DNA of 44,457 nucleotides, taken from the IMG/VR virus record IMGVR_UViG_3300033146_001665, positions 1 to 44,457 of that record; one strand, written 5' to 3'. Source of the DNA: a virus. Under the pieces are notes generated by a model. It was not told where the DNA came from, made no database searches, and saw only the letters and a list, made by a program, of their open reading frames with translations. Each line of letters begins with the position of its first letter. The stretch's first letter is position 1. A program made the position numbers and the translations under genes. Of the stretch, positions 16,538 through 39,035 are shown in pieces.

Positions 16538-17179
16538 GTGATAGTGGTAAGAACAAAGAACATGGACATTCAAAAAATAGATAAATATGATGGTTATGCA
16601 ATTAATGAGAATAATATGTCCCAAATCAAAGAAGGTGATATTCTTTTGATGACACCAGTTAAAAATGTTTTTCTAAAGCATTTTATATCTTGGTGTATTA
16701 AAAAAGTCACGGGTTATTATTGGACACATTCTTTAGTATCTTTTGGAAAAGAGTTGGTAGTTGAAAGTATAATAGATGGAGTTACGTTAAGGGATATATT
16801 AGAAGTTAATGAATATGTAAATGATTATAACTTTATAGCTTTACGATTTAAAGATGAAAATCTCAAATCCAGATTCACTGAAGCCGTAGAAACACGTCGA
16901 GGTTATAAATATGATTACATTCAAGCACTCTTAATGGGTGTGTTAAAATGGTTAAGAGATGTTTTCCAAAGAAAAAAAATCAGATCAATTCATCTTAAAG
17001 CTGACAATGAACGACGTTATGTATGTTCTGAATTAATAGCTGATTCATTATATGATATAGGGATAAATGTAATAACATATACAGATATAAATAGAAGTCA
17101 ATTCATGCCAGAAGACCTATTACTTTTAGGAGATGTTCTTGAGTTGGTAGAAATACAAAAAGAAGGTGATGGGACATGA
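16538..17179 (+). CDS. permuted papain-fold (YiiX/NlpC-P60-like) cysteine hydrolase
   Basis: 213 aa if GTG 16538 is used; GTG 16544 or ATG 16562 are alternatives and none has a strong ribosome site. The motif order is that of circularly permuted NlpC/P60 enzymes (YiiX/YebB, poxvirus G6R group): KEGDILL at 31-37, THSLVSFG with His64, VVESIIDGV with Glu76, and YVCSELIADSL with Cys163. Cys163, His64 and Glu76 are the likely catalytic residues. Members of the group cleave amide or ester bonds in peptidoglycan or lipids. Here it could be a wall-degrading or lysis enzyme, or virion-associated. A seven-codon mini-frame at 16521-16541 precedes and overlaps the GTG start. Confidence 0.75.
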   Translation: MIVVRTKNMDIQKIDKYDGYAINENNMSQIKEGDILLMTPVKNVFLKHFISWCIKKVTGYYWTHSLVSFGKELVVESIIDGVTLRDILEVNEYVNDYNFIALRFKDENLKSRFTEAVETRRGYKYDYIQALLMGVLKWLRDVFQRKKIRSIHLKADNERRYVCSELIADSLYDIGINVITYTDINRSQFMPEDLLLLGDVLELVEIQKEGDGT

Positions 17180-18044: not shown

Positions 18045-18914
18045 TTATGATTCAATCAAGTATATACCATTGGTTTCATCATTTACAGAAACTTGTTTAA
18101 TGACTTGTTCATACTTAAAACTTTCTAATGTTTTATCCTCACCATATTTGAGATAAAAATCCAACATTGATTTAAAAAGAAAAATGCGTCTTGATGGGTT
18201 TAAATGAAAATCATTAATTGTTTTGTCGCATGGTTGATATATGCTTGTATGATTAAAACGTTTACCCTTTAATGTTGAAACATCAAAATCTAATTTAAGA
18301 TTTTTACCTCGTCTTATTATGGGCATAACTCGTTCTCCACCAAACGTACTTGGTAAATGTTTATCGGTCATAAATGGTATCATAGTAAAAGCATCTTCAT
18401 TATCACTACTATCATCTATAACATTATCAATTATTTCATCCATCTTTAATAACTTGTTTACCATATCAAAAAATTTCATATAATCAGTTTGGTAATATTC
18501 ATCTTTATTTTTTTCATAATATTTTTCGGCTTCATTTTTATCCAAATTACCTTTACAATTAATTATACCACTTGGTCCAGCCACATATATGGCATCAATC
18601 ATTAAATTAATATCAGATACAGTTATAGCCAAAAGAGAACGTAAGTATTCATAAAAATTAACCTCGTCTTGAATGTCAGAGAATTCTTTTCTATTGTGTA
18701 TTACATGAGTGTCATCTAATAGCAAATCATTGTGTTCACTTTCACATTTAATATTAAAATAATACTTACTATTAGTTTTATCATGATGAGTTCTTATTGT
18801 TATATTAGCCCTAGAAAAAGTTCCATGAAACCAGGTATCTTGTGTTTTCCATTCGTCCTCGGTTAAGCCAAAATACTTATCTGTTTGATTCCATAGTAGT
18901 GTCGATTCAGTCAT
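18045..18914 (-). CDS. hypothetical protein, 289 aa
   Basis: ATG 18914 with TAAGGAG 7 bases upstream. It is a soluble acidic protein; a low-complexity acidic stretch lies near residues 160-175 (IIDNVIDDSSDNEDAF), and the N-terminal part has alternating strands (RANITIRTHHDK, YYFNIKCESEH). No known motif. It is the first gene downstream of the long non-coding locus on the minus strand, and candidate minus-strand promoters lie at about 19060-19160. Confidence 0.65.
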   Translation of the reverse strand: MTESTLLWNQTDKYFGLTEDEWKTQDTWFHGTFSRANITIRTHHDKTNSKYYFNIKCESEHNDLLLDDTHVIHNRKEFSDIQDEVNFYEYLRSLLAITVSDINLMIDAIYVAGPSGIINCKGNLDKNEAEKYYEKNKDEYYQTDYMKFFDMVNKLLKMDEIIDNVIDDSSDNEDAFTMIPFMTDKHLPSTFGGERVMPIIRRGKNLKLDFDVSTLKGKRFNHTSIYQPCDKTINDFHLNPSRRIFLFKSMLDFYLKYGEDKTLESFKYEQVIKQVSVNDETNGIYLIES

Positions 18915-19261
18915 ATCAGTCTCCTTAAGAATAGCGGTTGTTCATCTATAATTTATTTTAATTTGATTAGTAAAGTTATATAATTGATCACATAAGGTAA
19001 TTGATATATAGTAAAGTGTTTAAGTTATCATATCACATTAGAAAACCGCCGTTGTGGTTATCAATATGTTTTTAAGGTAAATTATATTATCGAACGAATC
19101 ACAATCATTCACATGACGATGTTTTTAAGTTTAGAATTTAAGTTACCCATATAGGTGGCCATATGGTAAAGCCTTTATATTGCCAAAATGGAATCTACCA
19201 CGGTTCGAGATCTTCTATCAATACATATCTATACCTGTATCTATTCAAGGTCTAAGGCTTA

Positions 19262-19560
19262 TCATACGAGATGTAGCTCAGGCGGAATCTCATACTTCAT
19301 TACCTTTATCTAGTTTATAGGTTACTCTTAATCGTTACACCCTGAGAAGTTCTTCTCAGAACGATCTATTCCTACTTACTAGAATACCTTCAAGTATATC
19401 CATAAGGGCTTACTTAGTTTCAACCTAGAAGATCATCCTTCTAGGTTCTATTTCTTATCAAGTATTCATTCAAGAACTTTTCTTCTAGAAGACTACTTAT
19501 CTTTAGACTCAAGTACATACTTAAGAACATTATCTACTTACTTATTTAATATTTAAATCT
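19262..19560. ncRNA. candidate structured RNA / hairpin array
   Basis: Perfect or near-perfect stems follow one another: GAGAT..ATCTC (19268-19291), CTGAGAA..TTCTCAG (19342-19359), AACCTAGAAG..CTTCTAGGTT (19422-19447, 10 bp, 6-base loop) and the palindrome CTTCTAGAAG (about 19482-19491). Three imperfect copies of CAAGTA-N6-8-AAG(A/G)(A/G)C begin at 19391, 19459 and 19510. Strand is not certain; base skew favours the minus strand. RNA function is inference. Confidence 0.35.
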
Positions 19561-19726
19561 TTTTTATTAGTTTATATCGTTGACCCGAAGATCTAAAACC
19601 GCAATCAAGGACTACGTTTCATTTCTTACAAAATATAAGACAAAATATCTTTGCAAGGCTTAACATAATAATTTCAAAATCTAGAATTACATATAATAAG
19701 AAAATTAATATATTTCACAATTAATA

Positions 19727-19850
19727 CTCTGTTATAAGATTTTAAAAATTCCGAACTTAAAGATATATGAATACAATATAATTAAACATTCGAAATTAAT
19801 TCAAAACATCTGTTATAAGAATTCAAAATAACTTTCCGAATTAAAGAATC
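19727..19850. repeat. direct repeat pair, iteron-like
   Basis: TCTGTTATAAGA occurs at 19728-19739 and at 19809-19820 (period 81). Each copy is followed by an AT run and then TTCCGAA-(C)TT-AAAGA. A third weaker copy (ATATAATAAGAAAATTAAT) lies near 19691. AT-rich direct repeats next to a recombinase operon resemble replication-origin or regulator-binding arrays; function is not shown. Confidence 0.5.
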
Positions 19851-19947
19851 TTAAAAACTTAAGAGCAGATATAATGAATTACAAGATCTACTAAGTAATT
19901 GAAAACCAAAATCTTTGGAGAACATAAGAATCTATCTTCCAAAGTAG

Positions 19948-20028
19948 ATGCGAAAAATTGCTTGTGAAAATGCCTTCGGTCAATCTATTCGTAAATTGAG
20001 TTATCAAATCAAAAAGGAGACAGGCTGA
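19948..20028 (+). CDS. possible 26-aa peptide or gene remnant
   Basis: ATG opens MRKIACENAFGQSIRKLSYQ and ends KKETG before TGA. The sequence looks protein-like, but there is no ribosome site, and an upstream in-frame stop abuts the ATG. An AAGGAG lies inside its 3' end, ahead of a five-codon frame starting at 20032. It may be a leader peptide or the stump of a lost gene. Confidence 0.2.
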   Translation: MRKIACENAFGQSIRKLSYQIKKETG

Positions 20029-20090
20029 AAAATGTTAGTTATTTACTAAACCTAATTGACACTTTACCCGCCACCCCTTTTTTTGATAAT

Positions 20091-20120
20091 TTGACATTAA
20101 CCACCTATGACCTATATAAA
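20091..20120 (+). promoter_or_regulatory. sigma70-like promoter of the recA operon
   Basis: TTGACA at 20091-20096 and TATAAA at 20115-20120 are 18 bases apart, upstream of the gene at 20197. A CCACCTA box lies between the two elements (20101-20107). A second TTGACA occurs at 20056-20061, again followed by a C-rich CCGCCACCCC tract, so the upstream region looks duplicated. Confidence 0.6.
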
Positions 20121-20196
20121 TTTTTGATGTGATACTAATATACTCAACCAACCAATCAACCAGCACCCGATAGGTTTAACATTAAGGAGAACTAAT

Positions 20197-20508
20197 ATGT
20201 CTAAAGATCCTTCGTTACGACAATCAATTATCAGCCTAGCCCGTATGTTTTTACAAAAATTCTTATCAGCAGGGTTAGCTTATCAAGAAGATACTACACC
20301 ACAAGACGTTGATAAAGAACAATTGCGTATGGGCATTAAAGTTGAATATGAACATACCACTTCTAAGCAAATTGCCACGCGTATAGCTTTAGACCACCTT
20401 ACCGAAATTCCCGATTATTATACTAGGCTTAAAAAGATGGAAGAAGATGCAAATCAATCTAAAGGATCAGCTAAAATCATACGTGAAAAGAATATGAAAG
20501 GTTATTAA
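20197..20508 (+). CDS. DUF5661-like protein
   Basis: 103 aa, ribosome site AAGGAG 8 bases upstream. Residues 38-82 fit the DUF5661 pattern, E-Q-L-x-x-G-I-K-V-E-x-E-H-T followed by IALDHLTEIPDYYTRLKKME, with conserved His53 and His67. The family is widespread in phages and bacteria and its function is unknown. Here it is the first gene of the recA operon, so a link to DNA metabolism is possible. The N-terminal ~35 residues are a variable helical extension. Confidence 0.7.
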   Translation: MSKDPSLRQSIISLARMFLQKFLSAGLAYQEDTTPQDVDKEQLRMGIKVEYEHTTSKQIATRIALDHLTEIPDYYTRLKKMEEDANQSKGSAKIIREKNMKGY

Positions 20509-20511
20509 AGA

Positions 20512-21021
20512 ATGAATAATGATACCATAAATAATAACCCACTACCACCGGTTCCTATTAAACCACCACAAGTACCAACTTTACCAGAAGAGGAAGTTGT
20601 TGAATCCATGGTAACATTACTTGAAAGTAGTTGTTCAGTTGGTGATGTCACTAAATTAATTATATACCAAATTAATACTTTACAAGGTGACATTAAAGAG
20701 CTAGAAGAAATGAAAACAATGCTTAAAAATATTTTTCCAACAGATATGAAATCTTATAGAAGTGCTTATGTGATTGAGAATAAGGTTAAAACTTTCACAG
20801 GTTTTCATACTACTATATTATCCTATAAAAAGGAACTTAATGGTATGCTATTGAAATTAAGATCTATGCTTGATGTTGGTACAGATCTTGAACAATACAA
20901 GAAAGCTATGAGAGAAGTTATGATGGAACATAGTTCTATGAAAAATAACTTAGAGAATAATAAGGAAAAGATCAAAGACCTAATTAAAAAGACACCAAGT
21001 TTAATGCCATCGTCTTTATAA
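20512..21021 (+). CDS. coiled-coil hypothetical protein, 169 aa
   Basis: Starts 3 bases after the previous stop, with AAAGG upstream. The N-terminus is Pro-rich (NNNPLPPVPIKPPQVPTLP), residues ~30-50 are a short hydrophobic helix pair, and residues ~55-160 are continuous amphipathic helix. It may oligomerise or act as a recombinase accessory protein because it sits directly before recA, but no known mediator motif is visible. Confidence 0.6.
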   Translation: MNNDTINNNPLPPVPIKPPQVPTLPEEEVVESMVTLLESSCSVGDVTKLIIYQINTLQGDIKELEEMKTMLKNIFPTDMKSYRSAYVIENKVKTFTGFHTTILSYKKELNGMLLKLRSMLDVGTDLEQYKKAMREVMMEHSSMKNNLENNKEKIKDLIKKTPSLMPSSL

Positions 21022-21079
21022 TTTACTGGCCAAAATGAAATAAATTATAGTTCAAAAATAGATATAGGAGACTTATTAA

Positions 21080-22423
21080 ATGGCTAAAGAAACTAAGGCA
21101 AAAGTAGTTGCAAAATCAATTCAGGAAAGATTAAACGCTTTCTTAAGTGAAGACAAAGGTTTTCGTTCGGTTGGTAATGAAAAACCAGAGTTAATTAAAA
21201 CCGGTATAGATAACTTAGATGCTATATTGGGTGGTGGTATAATACTCGGTGGACTTATACAATTAGTTGGTAGAGCTGGTTGTGGAAAATCTTCGTTAGC
21301 TGCTAAATTGATATCAAGCTTTCAAAAGAAGACTAAAGGTAATTGTGTGTCTTTATATATTGATTCCGAAAGCACTATGACAAAATTGAGATTAAGTCAG
21401 CTTGGTGTCAATAGGCCTAAATTAGATCCTATTAATGACGTAATGTTAGAAGATGTTTTTGCTGTTATAGATTCAGTTATAGAATTCAAGAAAGATAATA
21501 AGGAAACACAAGACATACCAACAATTATAGTATGGGATAGTATTGCAAATACGCTTACACTTAAAGAAACAACAGCTGAAGATCCTAAGGAAGTTATTGG
21601 TTATAAAGCTAGAATGCTTTCATTATACTTACCCAAAATATCAGCTAAATTACAAGAGTTCAAAATTACATTAGTTGCAATTAATCAATTAAGAGATTCA
21701 GTTGGTATTGGGATGATGCCTTCACCAGTTGCTATTAAAGGCATGAAACAATCTGATACTATACCTGGTGGACGAACATTACAATTTGCGACTAGTCAAT
21801 TAATATACATGCAAGATGTTGGTAACATTGAAGAACGAACTCATGGTTTTGATGGTAAAGAAGTTGATGTTCATTGTATTAAGAATAAAGCGTTCCCACC
21901 ATTAATTAAAACTAGAATGTCTTTTAGTTATATGGGTGGTTATAGTTCGTTTTGGTCAGCCTTCGCATTACTTAAAGCAGAAAAACTTATTGTTGCTGGT
22001 GGTGCTTGGTATAGTATGAAAGGTTTTGAAAAGAAATTTCAAGCTTCTAAGTGTGCTCAATTATACACTGAAAATGAATCATTTAGAAAGGCCTTTAATA
22101 ATCTAATAGGTAACTATACTCAAAGTATTGCTGAGAAGTATACCAATCAATTGGAATCATGTAACATCGACGATGTCATTGATAAGGCTTTAAATAAAGG
22201 TGGTGCTATTACAGATGGTTTACTACAGAATAAGGCATTAAGTAAAAAGATTAAAGACGATAAAGTGACGGTTGAACCTAAAAGTAAACCAACACCTATT
22301 GTAAAAGATTCTAAAGTTAAAGTCGGGGAAGTTCTTGAAGCTGATATGAAAGTTGCATCTCAGGTGCTTCCAAATGACAAACCAGTACCACCATCTACAA
22401 GTATTGACAACTTAGTAATATAG
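21080..22423 (+). CDS. recA: RecA/UvsX-like recombinase
   Basis: 447 aa, ATG with TAGGAG 10 bases upstream. Walker A is GRAGCGKSS (64-72) and Walker B is TIIVWDS with Asp153. INQLRDSVGIGMMPSP (201-216) and MKQSDTIPGGRTLQFATSQ (222-240) correspond to the region between loops L1/L2, close to the bacterial RecA sequence NQ-R-x-x-x-G. RecA-fold proteins coat single-stranded DNA and drive strand exchange with ATP; in large phages they start recombination-dependent replication. The C-terminal ~90 residues are a Lys/Val/Pro-rich tail longer than in E. coli RecA. It is probably functionally analogous to T4 UvsX. Confidence 0.92.
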   Translation: MAKETKAKVVAKSIQERLNAFLSEDKGFRSVGNEKPELIKTGIDNLDAILGGGIILGGLIQLVGRAGCGKSSLAAKLISSFQKKTKGNCVSLYIDSESTMTKLRLSQLGVNRPKLDPINDVMLEDVFAVIDSVIEFKKDNKETQDIPTIIVWDSIANTLTLKETTAEDPKEVIGYKARMLSLYLPKISAKLQEFKITLVAINQLRDSVGIGMMPSPVAIKGMKQSDTIPGGRTLQFATSQLIYMQDVGNIEERTHGFDGKEVDVHCIKNKAFPPLIKTRMSFSYMGGYSSFWSAFALLKAEKLIVAGGAWYSMKGFEKKFQASKCAQLYTENESFRKAFNNLIGNYTQSIAEKYTNQLESCNIDDVIDKALNKGGAITDGLLQNKALSKKIKDDKVTVEPKSKPTPIVKDSKVKVGEVLEADMKVASQVLPNDKPVPPSTSIDNLVI

Positions 22424-24310: not shown

Positions 24311-25036
24311 ATGGCTTGGGAAGGTAGAAATATATTTAATAAGAGATTTAACTCTGAGTTAAATCATGAAGATGCTTATGTTAGTGGATACTTTGGAATT
24401 AGTTTTATAATCAAATCTGAGATTTTACAGGCTATAAATAAATCAGCTGATAGTGAAGCTGGTGCTAATCTTAAAACCTGGGATGCTAGTAATGGTCCAA
24501 AAATGCTTTCAACATTATGTGAAGGTGTTACAACGGTTCCAGGTGGCACTTTAAATAATGTTGATATAACATCTATGGGTGGTGCTAAATGGGGAGCTCC
24601 AGGTAGCGTAGACTTCGGTGATCAAATTACATTAAAGTTTCGTGAATTGTCAGGTATGCCGGTTCGTAAATTCATAACTGGGTGGACTAATTTAGTTCGC
24701 AATAGTAATATGGGTATAAGTGAACTGCATAGTGGAAGTCCAATAGCTCCTATGGATTATACTAAAACCAACTTTGAATCTGAATTACTATATTGGACGC
24801 TTAAACCAAATGGTAAAACAGTTGAATTTGCCGCTAGCTATCATGGTATTTATAGTATGAGTGATTTGAGTTCTCAGATTACTACAGATTATGAAACCGT
24901 TGACGGACAAACTTTCGATGTAAATTTTCATGTTGATGACATGAGATGGGATTATAGAACTGTAGCAACATGTCAAGGTTTAGTTGATCAATTCTATAGT
25001 AACGCTGAGAGTGCTTATTATAATCACGCTGGATAA
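24311..25036 (+). CDS. tail tube-like protein, paralogue 2
   Basis: 241 aa, ribosome site AAGGAGG. Closest relative in the window is paralogue 1: NKRFNSELNHEDAYVSGYF, TSMGGAKWGAPG, TLKFRELSGMPVRKFITGW, EFAASYHGIYSM and DVNFHVDDMRWD occur in the same order. Lengths are nearly equal (243 and 241 aa), so the pair is a tandem duplication. Role as for paralogue 1: tail tube or tube-initiation ring. Which one polymerises to full length cannot be told from sequence. Confidence 0.65.
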   Translation: MAWEGRNIFNKRFNSELNHEDAYVSGYFGISFIIKSEILQAINKSADSEAGANLKTWDASNGPKMLSTLCEGVTTVPGGTLNNVDITSMGGAKWGAPGSVDFGDQITLKFRELSGMPVRKFITGWTNLVRNSNMGISELHSGSPIAPMDYTKTNFESELLYWTLKPNGKTVEFAASYHGIYSMSDLSSQITTDYETVDGQTFDVNFHVDDMRWDYRTVATCQGLVDQFYSNAESAYYNHAG

Positions 25037-25064
25037 TTAATTAACGAAATGAGGGAGTAAGGTA

Positions 25065-25946
25065 ATGACATTAAGTTCTAAAGGTCAACTATTGGCTAAA
25101 CGTTATCTTACTATAAAGGATGCTTATGTCACTGGTTTCTTTTTTGCGACCATTGACAGCATCCCTCCTCATTTCGTAAGTTACATGCAAAGTGAATATA
25201 GTGGCGGGTGGACAGAAGATAAAATAACAAGAGCTTTCACATCATTATCTGTTGATATAGCATTACCACAAGAAACATTAAAGACAACGTCTATGCCAGG
25301 CAGGGCTGGTTTCTCAAGAACATCTCCTCTATTTTCACAGCATGGACATACAGTGAGTGTTAAATTTTTAGTAGATCAAACATTAGAAGCCACAGTGTTG
25401 ATAACTGCATGGTACAAGTATATAACTATGGTAGCTGATGGTCGAATTGATGCTGAACAAGCAAGTAACGCTTCTAATGTCTTTGGTGCTAATTTTTACT
25501 ATTGTACACTATTACCAAATATGAGCGATATCGTTTTTGCTTTCGCTGGTGAAGAGTTTTATCCAATTACTAACCCCTTTAACGATTTCAGCCATAACCT
25601 TCAAACCGTTTCGGGGTTAGAACATAATGTACAATTTAATGTAGGTTACTATGATACTTGGGCTAAAGGTAAAACTTCTATGTTATGGTTAAAAACTTAT
25701 TTAAATAGTAGAATAGATTCATTTAAAGATTTTACTCGAGAAGAAGAAATTGCTAAATTGGACCCAGACCTACAACCAGATTATTCTATGAAAGATGTAG
25801 GAAAATTATCATATAAATATGAACAACCTGAAAATAACCATTTTGGACAAAATCCGGAATTAGATAAACGAGGAGTCAATAAGAAATCTAAAGAAAATCA
25901 AGGTTCTGTTTATGACAAATTTAATGGTGGAGATTATGTACTATGA
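25065..25946 (+). CDS. tail tube-like protein, paralogue 3 with C-terminal extension
   Basis: 293 aa, ribosome site GAGGGAG. It keeps the tube-like order in diverged form: AKRYLTIKDAYVTGFFF, TTSMPGRAGFSRT, TVSVKFLVDQTLEATVLITA, VFAFAGEEFYPI and HNVQFNVGYYDTWA. About 60 extra C-terminal residues (FTREEEIAKLDPDLQPDYSM onward) are hydrophilic and absent from the other two, so this one may bind a neighbour, such as the gp25 wedge encoded next. It overlaps that gene by ATGA. Tube initiator or terminator is the best guess. Confidence 0.6.
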   Translation: MTLSSKGQLLAKRYLTIKDAYVTGFFFATIDSIPPHFVSYMQSEYSGGWTEDKITRAFTSLSVDIALPQETLKTTSMPGRAGFSRTSPLFSQHGHTVSVKFLVDQTLEATVLITAWYKYITMVADGRIDAEQASNASNVFGANFYYCTLLPNMSDIVFAFAGEEFYPITNPFNDFSHNLQTVSGLEHNVQFNVGYYDTWAKGKTSMLWLKTYLNSRIDSFKDFTREEEIAKLDPDLQPDYSMKDVGKLSYKYEQPENNHFGQNPELDKRGVNKKSKENQGSVYDKFNGGDYVL

Positions 25947-38755: not shown

Positions 38756-38815
38756 ATGTATAAATACCGTTGATGTGATTAGTCATCCATAAACACTCCT
38801 TTTCAATTTGGAACT

Positions 38816-38858
38816 TTGGCCAGCGTTTTTATTTCCTTTTAAACGCTGGCCAATTTTT
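38816..38858 (+). terminator. strong intrinsic terminator of the 32447-38755 operon
   Basis: TTGGCCAGCGTTT and AAACGCTGGCCAA form a perfect 13-bp stem with a 12-base loop and five T residues. It is the strongest terminator in the window by stem length and GC content. Confidence 0.93.
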
Positions 38859-38859
38859 C

Positions 38860-38969
38860 ATGCTCTTGTATAAATATTGAAATGCTTGTTTCTTGACAGC
38901 CAAGCATGTTGAGTAATATTGATTAGGTATAGGTCAGCATATATTTGCCGTATGTGTTGACCGCCTTTT
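38860..38969 (+). ncRNA. candidate small RNA with two hairpins between terminators
   Basis: After the strong terminator, ATGCTTG/CAAGCAT (38882-38907) and a 12-bp stem GGTCAGCATATA/TATGTGTTGACC (38932-38962, two G-T pairs) followed by CCTTTT lie in ~110 bases without a reading frame. TATAAAT at 38869-38875 could be a -10 box. The second stem plus T-run may instead be a backup terminator. RNA function is inference. Confidence 0.35.
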
Positions 38970-38995
38970 CACGTCTAAAAAAGTAACTAAGTAAC
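38969..38995 (+). promoter_or_regulatory. candidate promoter of the isolated gene at 39036
   Basis: TTTTCACGT joins directly to CTAAAAAAGTAACTAAGTAAC. This combines the CACGT element seen after two other terminators and the CTNAAAAA box of the divergent spacers at 2876-2982 and 12563-12668. The start codon is about 45 bases downstream. Confidence 0.45.
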
Positions 38996-39035
38996 TAAAA
39001 ATAAATAGGGTGATTTAAATTAAGGAGAACAACCA

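Follow-up and report, generated by a model that had tools for sequence, protein, structure and literature searches.

The window analysed here is an IMG/VR record of 44,457 bases, which is probably a fragment of a larger genome. Its link to jumbo phages, drawn in the initial annotation, is indirect: the record itself is 44 kb long, but alignments of its RecA protein lead to relatives whose contigs measure as much as 312 kb. Comparison of all intergenic gaps in this viral contig identifies the stretch between a minus-strand gene and the recA operon as the largest, with a length of 1282 nt (Table 1). The next gaps measure 459, 410, 379 and 280 nt and the median is 12 nt. The earlier description of an otherwise packed genome holds broadly, although not throughout. 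The flanking genes are also as described, an unknown gene of 289 aa on the minus strand and the recA operon on the plus strand. The 289-aa ORF gave no match in Pfam, PHROG, PADLOC, phage or viral-contig searches, and its single-sequence AlphaFold model is uninformative (pLDDT 33). Farther to the left, an ORF at 16538–17179 matches PHROG 1128 (enoyl-CoA hydratase/carnithine racemase-like, host takeover) with an E value of 1.4e-17.

The 1.28-kb locus is indeed gene-free. No ORF in it reaches 47 codons, and its maximum of 46 codons is at chance level, since random sequence with the same dinucleotide make-up gives a mean longest ORF of 52.7 aa (5–95% range, 35–78). Neither strand has an ORF of 8 or more codons preceded by a Shine–Dalgarno sequence, which confirms the claim that no frame of more than 60 codons has a ribosome site. 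Translation of the locus with alternative codes (TAG = Q, TGA = W) yielded no convincing ORF. ORF lengths at the random level are also what would be seen in a decayed protein gene or insertion debris, in which case the fold described below would have arisen by chance.

Table 1. Coordinates of the gene-free locus, its predicted elements and the flanking genes
Feature	Position	Strand	Remarks
289-aa ORF, function unknown	18045–18914	−	Start codon abuts the gene-free locus
Gene-free locus	18915–20196		Separates divergently oriented genes; longest ORF 46 aa, no ribosome site
Hairpin just 3′ of the core, TTACCATAT...ATATGGGTAA	19146–19172	−	Read from sequence; no U-tract
Core of candidate structured RNA	19195–19614	−	5′ end at the 19614 side; ~134 base pairs, 24 helices listed, multi-branched
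Closing stem, 3′ strand	19197–19227	−	Helix list
Three-way subdomain, two capped arms	19247–19390	−	144 nt; basis of covariance model R1
Hairpins in branching region	19558–19519, 19499–19459, 19447–19422, 19416–19391	−	Helix list
Perfect 10-bp hairpin, AACCTAGAAG-GATGAT-CTTCTAGGTT	19422–19447	−	Helix list
Closing stem, 5′ strand	19573–19605	−	10+8+5+5 bp, interrupted by small internal loops; helix list
A+T-rich 5′ arm, 23% G+C	19617–20010	−	Near-repeat TCTTATAACAGA; structure weaker than core
Putative promoter of the RNA, TTGTGA-16-TATTAT	19693–19720	−	Consensus match alone, 9/12
Probable promoter of the DUF5661–169 aa–recA operon, TTGACA-16-TATATA	20091–20119	+	Read directly from sequence
Operon DUF5661 (103 aa)–169 aa–RecA/UvsX	20197–22423	+	Pfam, PHROG

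Read along the minus strand, the locus is composed of a promoter region on the recA side (20196–20011), an A+T-rich arm (20010–19617), the core (19614–19195) and a poorly structured stretch (19190–18915). The G+C content of the core is 33%, compared with 23–28% on its two sides. The near-repeat of the A+T-rich arm occurs in two copies 81 nt apart, and the arm is structured on the minus strand only (z = −1.7, against +0.6 for the plus strand). The stretch of about 280 nt between the core and the 289-aa gene shows a fold z of about 0. Of the stems, repeats and promoter-like boxes that the initial annotation had listed, the repeats are few and weak, and the boxes are in mild excess (16, with 9.2 ± 3.2 expected). 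The hairpin just 3′ of the core is a possible 3′ stabilizer of the RNA; the candidate RNA shows no convincing terminator, and the match of its putative promoter to the consensus is weak, which counts against a separate transcript. Elsewhere in the window, the plus strand forms very stable folds at 25001–25200 and 38801–39000 (z about −6.5 per 200 nt). Both places coincide with the end of a gene or lie close to one, and the fold at 25001–25200 does not have the pattern of a terminator.

The minus-strand core has a calculated folding energy of −111.6 kcal/mol against −86.7 ± 5.0 kcal/mol for shuffled sequences, none of which is as low (0 of 60). The corresponding z value, computed from this one sequence, is −5.0 for 19616–19190 (60 shuffles). 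Because the limits of the core had been chosen from the fold itself, we rescanned the contig in 420-nt segments on both strands, of which 268 of 296 (91%) were completed. Stability above shuffled sequence, the general criterion for structured RNA, is found in the core (z about −5), which ranks first of the 268 segments by z, with −5.8 in the chosen frame. The unselected grid segment 19201 on the minus strand has a z of −4.9, second only to that frame. The mean pair probability of the core is likewise the highest of the 268 segments, at 0.88–0.89 (mean 0.62, s.d. 0.13), where the value of 0.89 belongs to grid segment 19201, and the pairs of the closing stem mostly have probabilities of 0.7–0.99. 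With 200-nt segments, lower z values are reached elsewhere in the contig than at the core; thus, the locus is distinguished by a large coherent fold and not by single hairpins.

The plus strand complementary to the core also folds (z = −3.4), since the complement of hairpin-rich DNA folds as well. The strands differ in their pairing: G–U pairs make up 19 of the 134 pairs on the minus strand, compared with 6 on the plus strand. The minus strand of the core is also richer in G (0.21) than in C (0.12), which is the bias of coding strands in this contig. Together, the G–U asymmetry and the excess of G over C point to the minus strand as the RNA strand and to leftward transcription. The core would then lie upstream of the 289-aa gene on the same strand, and the locus ends in a good ribosome site (AAGGAG) for this gene, as expected if the core were part of a long structured 5′ leader, such as an attenuator or a riboswitch-like element. 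However, the core is separated from the gene by some 280 bases with little structure, the genes downstream in the syntenic relative described below are unrelated, and the 289-aa ORF itself has no relatives among the sequences searched. A leader of this gene is therefore improbable.

The core was compared with known RNAs. A cmscan of all 4227 Rfam families (gathering thresholds and E up to 5), including the model of the conserved 3′ region of GOLLD, gave no match in the locus. The ROOL model RF03087, searched against the contig with E up to 10, gave no match, and the control set gave none either. ARAGORN and Rfam detected neither tRNA nor tmRNA, and there is no tRNA in the 44 kb. Rfam also gave no group I or group II intron match at the locus, where the flanking ORFs are complete and divergent and no interrupted host gene is present; a group I intron was found in the related phage G004 (L106:15055–15306, 76.9 bits). 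The BLASTN comparison and covariance modelling suggested by the initial annotation brought no relatives to light: blastn of the locus against 50,697 phage records returned nothing, and covariance model R1, searched against 1.6 Mb of related phage DNA, found only itself. A second R1 hit (16.8 bits, E = 2.2) was discarded as it overlaps a protein gene, and so were the 41 viral-contig hits to an exact 16-mer of the closing stem, all of which fall in G+C-richer contigs that share no further similarity. Homologues of the core were thus found by none of the blastn, pattern and covariance searches.

Relatives of the window phage were sought through its DUF5661, baseplate, 289-aa and RecA proteins. 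The search of genome contigs gave no close syntenic relative; one, L151, was obtained only from the RecA alignment followed by alignment of tail genes. It is the nearest syntenic phage, with RecA at 59% and many structural genes at 40–60%. The gene order in L151 is a 152/178-aa gene, minus-strand gene(s), a gene-free gap, a homologue of the 169-aa protein and recA. This gap, 767 nt in length, occupies the position matching the locus, and the orientation of the flanking genes is divergent in both phages. The gap also folds, with z values of −4.3 and −4.6 on the two strands, and in a scan of the 67-kb contig its 300 nt closest to the minus-strand gene came third among 340 segments, on the equivalent of the window's minus strand. 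The sequences of the two loci are no more similar than shuffled sequences, for which reason an apparent shared motif, CGGG(G/T)CAAC, was abandoned. The architectures also differ, with long hairpins lined up one after another in L151. The two closest phages therefore both retain a structured locus free of genes at this position, which need not mean that the RNAs are homologous. Because the minus-strand genes beside the two loci show no relationship to each other, the locus is not simply an accessory of one conserved gene. Long gene-free stretches were also sought in the contigs of seven relatives and then in L151 and L176; several are structured and none is like the locus.

These comparisons bear on the decayed gene. 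The initial annotation had looked to relatives for an intact protein gene at this place: the syntenic L151 is gene-free there, whereas more distant relatives do carry genes close upstream of recA. With genes present only in the more distant phages, decay is not supported. In addition, a search of 2.6 Mb of DNA from related phages with translated segments of the locus gave no match (best E = 0.05), and the fold, which tops the whole window at 420 nt, speaks against debris. We regard a decayed gene as the least likely reading. Of the possibilities raised earlier, that of a stable RNA is favoured by the top-ranking 420-nt fold, the strand asymmetry and the gene-free structured counterpart in L151.

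The main rival to an RNA is a long regulatory or DNA-level region between divergent operons, in which promoters, operators and hairpins act as DNA or as terminators, possibly together with an A+T-rich start of replication or recombination at 19617–20010, and no functional RNA is made. The divergent orientation in both phages agrees with such a region, as do the ~390 nt at 23% G+C, the near-consensus promoter at 20091 facing recA and the formation of hairpins by both strands in the window and in L151. A gene-free stretch of 1.86 kb with 81% A+T and little definite structure also occurs, at another place, in the distant relative G004 (L105:14657–16516), where it is a possible replication start. 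However, neither DnaA boxes nor clustered iterons were found in 18915–20196, one strand folds clearly better than the other, and the single closed, multi-branched unit of the core lies where the locus is richer in G+C and not in its A+T-rich part. A replication origin, also proposed by the initial annotation, thus has no positive sign beyond the A+T-rich stretch, and the GC skew, suggested as a check and calculated for the window, simply tracks gene direction. We consider the regulatory or DNA-level region unlikely, though to be taken seriously.

Other stretches in related large phages were observed in the course of this analysis. In G008 (IMGVR_UViG_3300047095_000752), L132:14867–15681 and L132:16264–17505 lie on the minus strand inside a tRNA array and contain no ORFs of at least 70 codons, although smaller ones may occur. 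Their folding z values reach −9 per 300 nt, their G+C content is 42–43% in a phage of 36%, and their only Rfam matches are tRNAs; they are possibly better ornate-RNA candidates than 18915–20196. In G004 (IMGVR_UViG_3300033146_002242), the gene-poor stretch L104:1628–2798 has a z of −9.6 and carries repeats of CGCAGACCGGGxGCGGGATATAAGACGGTA. The structured stretch L224:4316–5629 (G025:62816–64129) lies beside a tRNA-Tyr gene; two or more short ORFs with strong ribosome sites are present in it, among them one of 46 and one of 48 codons, probably encoding small membrane proteins, and was therefore dropped as a comparable gene-free stretch. Lastly, the motif TATATATTAATTA is found in L095, L099, L102–L104, L106, L130–L132, L135, L137, L138, L140 and L142, mostly in one orientation per genome, and appears promoter-like; it is absent from the window.

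We compared the candidate with the large RNAs of other phages. ROOL and GOLLD are large phage RNAs of unknown function, often located beside tRNAs, and GOLLD RNA is raised during lysis (PMC12286853). ROOL, GOLLD and OLE, the ornate RNAs, are further characterized by homo-oligomeric complexes made of RNA only. ROOL (RF03087) is noncoding, large and multi-branched, and phages carry it in a locus free of genes (PMC12286853). The candidate shares these properties of ROOL; however, it does not match RF03087, has no tRNA nearby and has a core of ~420 nt, compared with ~570–660 nt for ROOL. Similarly, it resembles GOLLD as a large phage RNA and differs in having no Rfam match and no tRNA in the window, and many GOLLD members exceed 800 nt. 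The long gene-free stretch, higher local G+C content and complex fold are also features of the G+C-richer intergenic regions that yielded bacterial orphan RNAs (PMC8723152), although such classes rest on comparative alignments (e.g. PMC8723152) and the candidate on one sequence. Group I introns (RF00028) are structured RNAs in phage genomes as well; in contrast to them, the locus has no match to this family and interrupts no gene.

Our preferred reading, to which we assign a probability of about 0.45, is that of a stand-alone noncoding RNA with a compact structure, encoded by the minus strand of the locus and transcribed away from recA. A promoter inside the locus, for instance at about 19720–19693, would start a transcript running leftward, which would fold into the multi-branched core closed by the long interrupted stem and end at some point short of the 289-aa ORF. 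We infer that this region is transcribed and that it functions as RNA rather than as DNA; by analogy with the large ornate RNAs of phages, the transcript may serve in trans during infection, whether as scaffold, decoy or regulator. Tentatively, we place the candidate RNA as an orphan of a known kind, the large structured phage RNA, and as a member of no family; it is a promising candidate that falls short of an established new element. It is distinctly unlikely that it represents a large ornate phage RNA of a new class, which one lineage of large phages would have kept next to its recA operon and which would act in trans during infection. Such an RNA would have a compact, multi-branched core of ~420 nt in a total of perhaps 600–1000 nt and would evolve too fast for sequence searches.

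The coordinates and helices of the candidate RNA are directly testable. If the preferred reading is true, the locus would add a further large phage RNA, unrelated to GOLLD and ROOL, whose position would link it to recombination genes in a lineage of large phages. This RNA would offer a new handle on the role of large structured phage RNAs.
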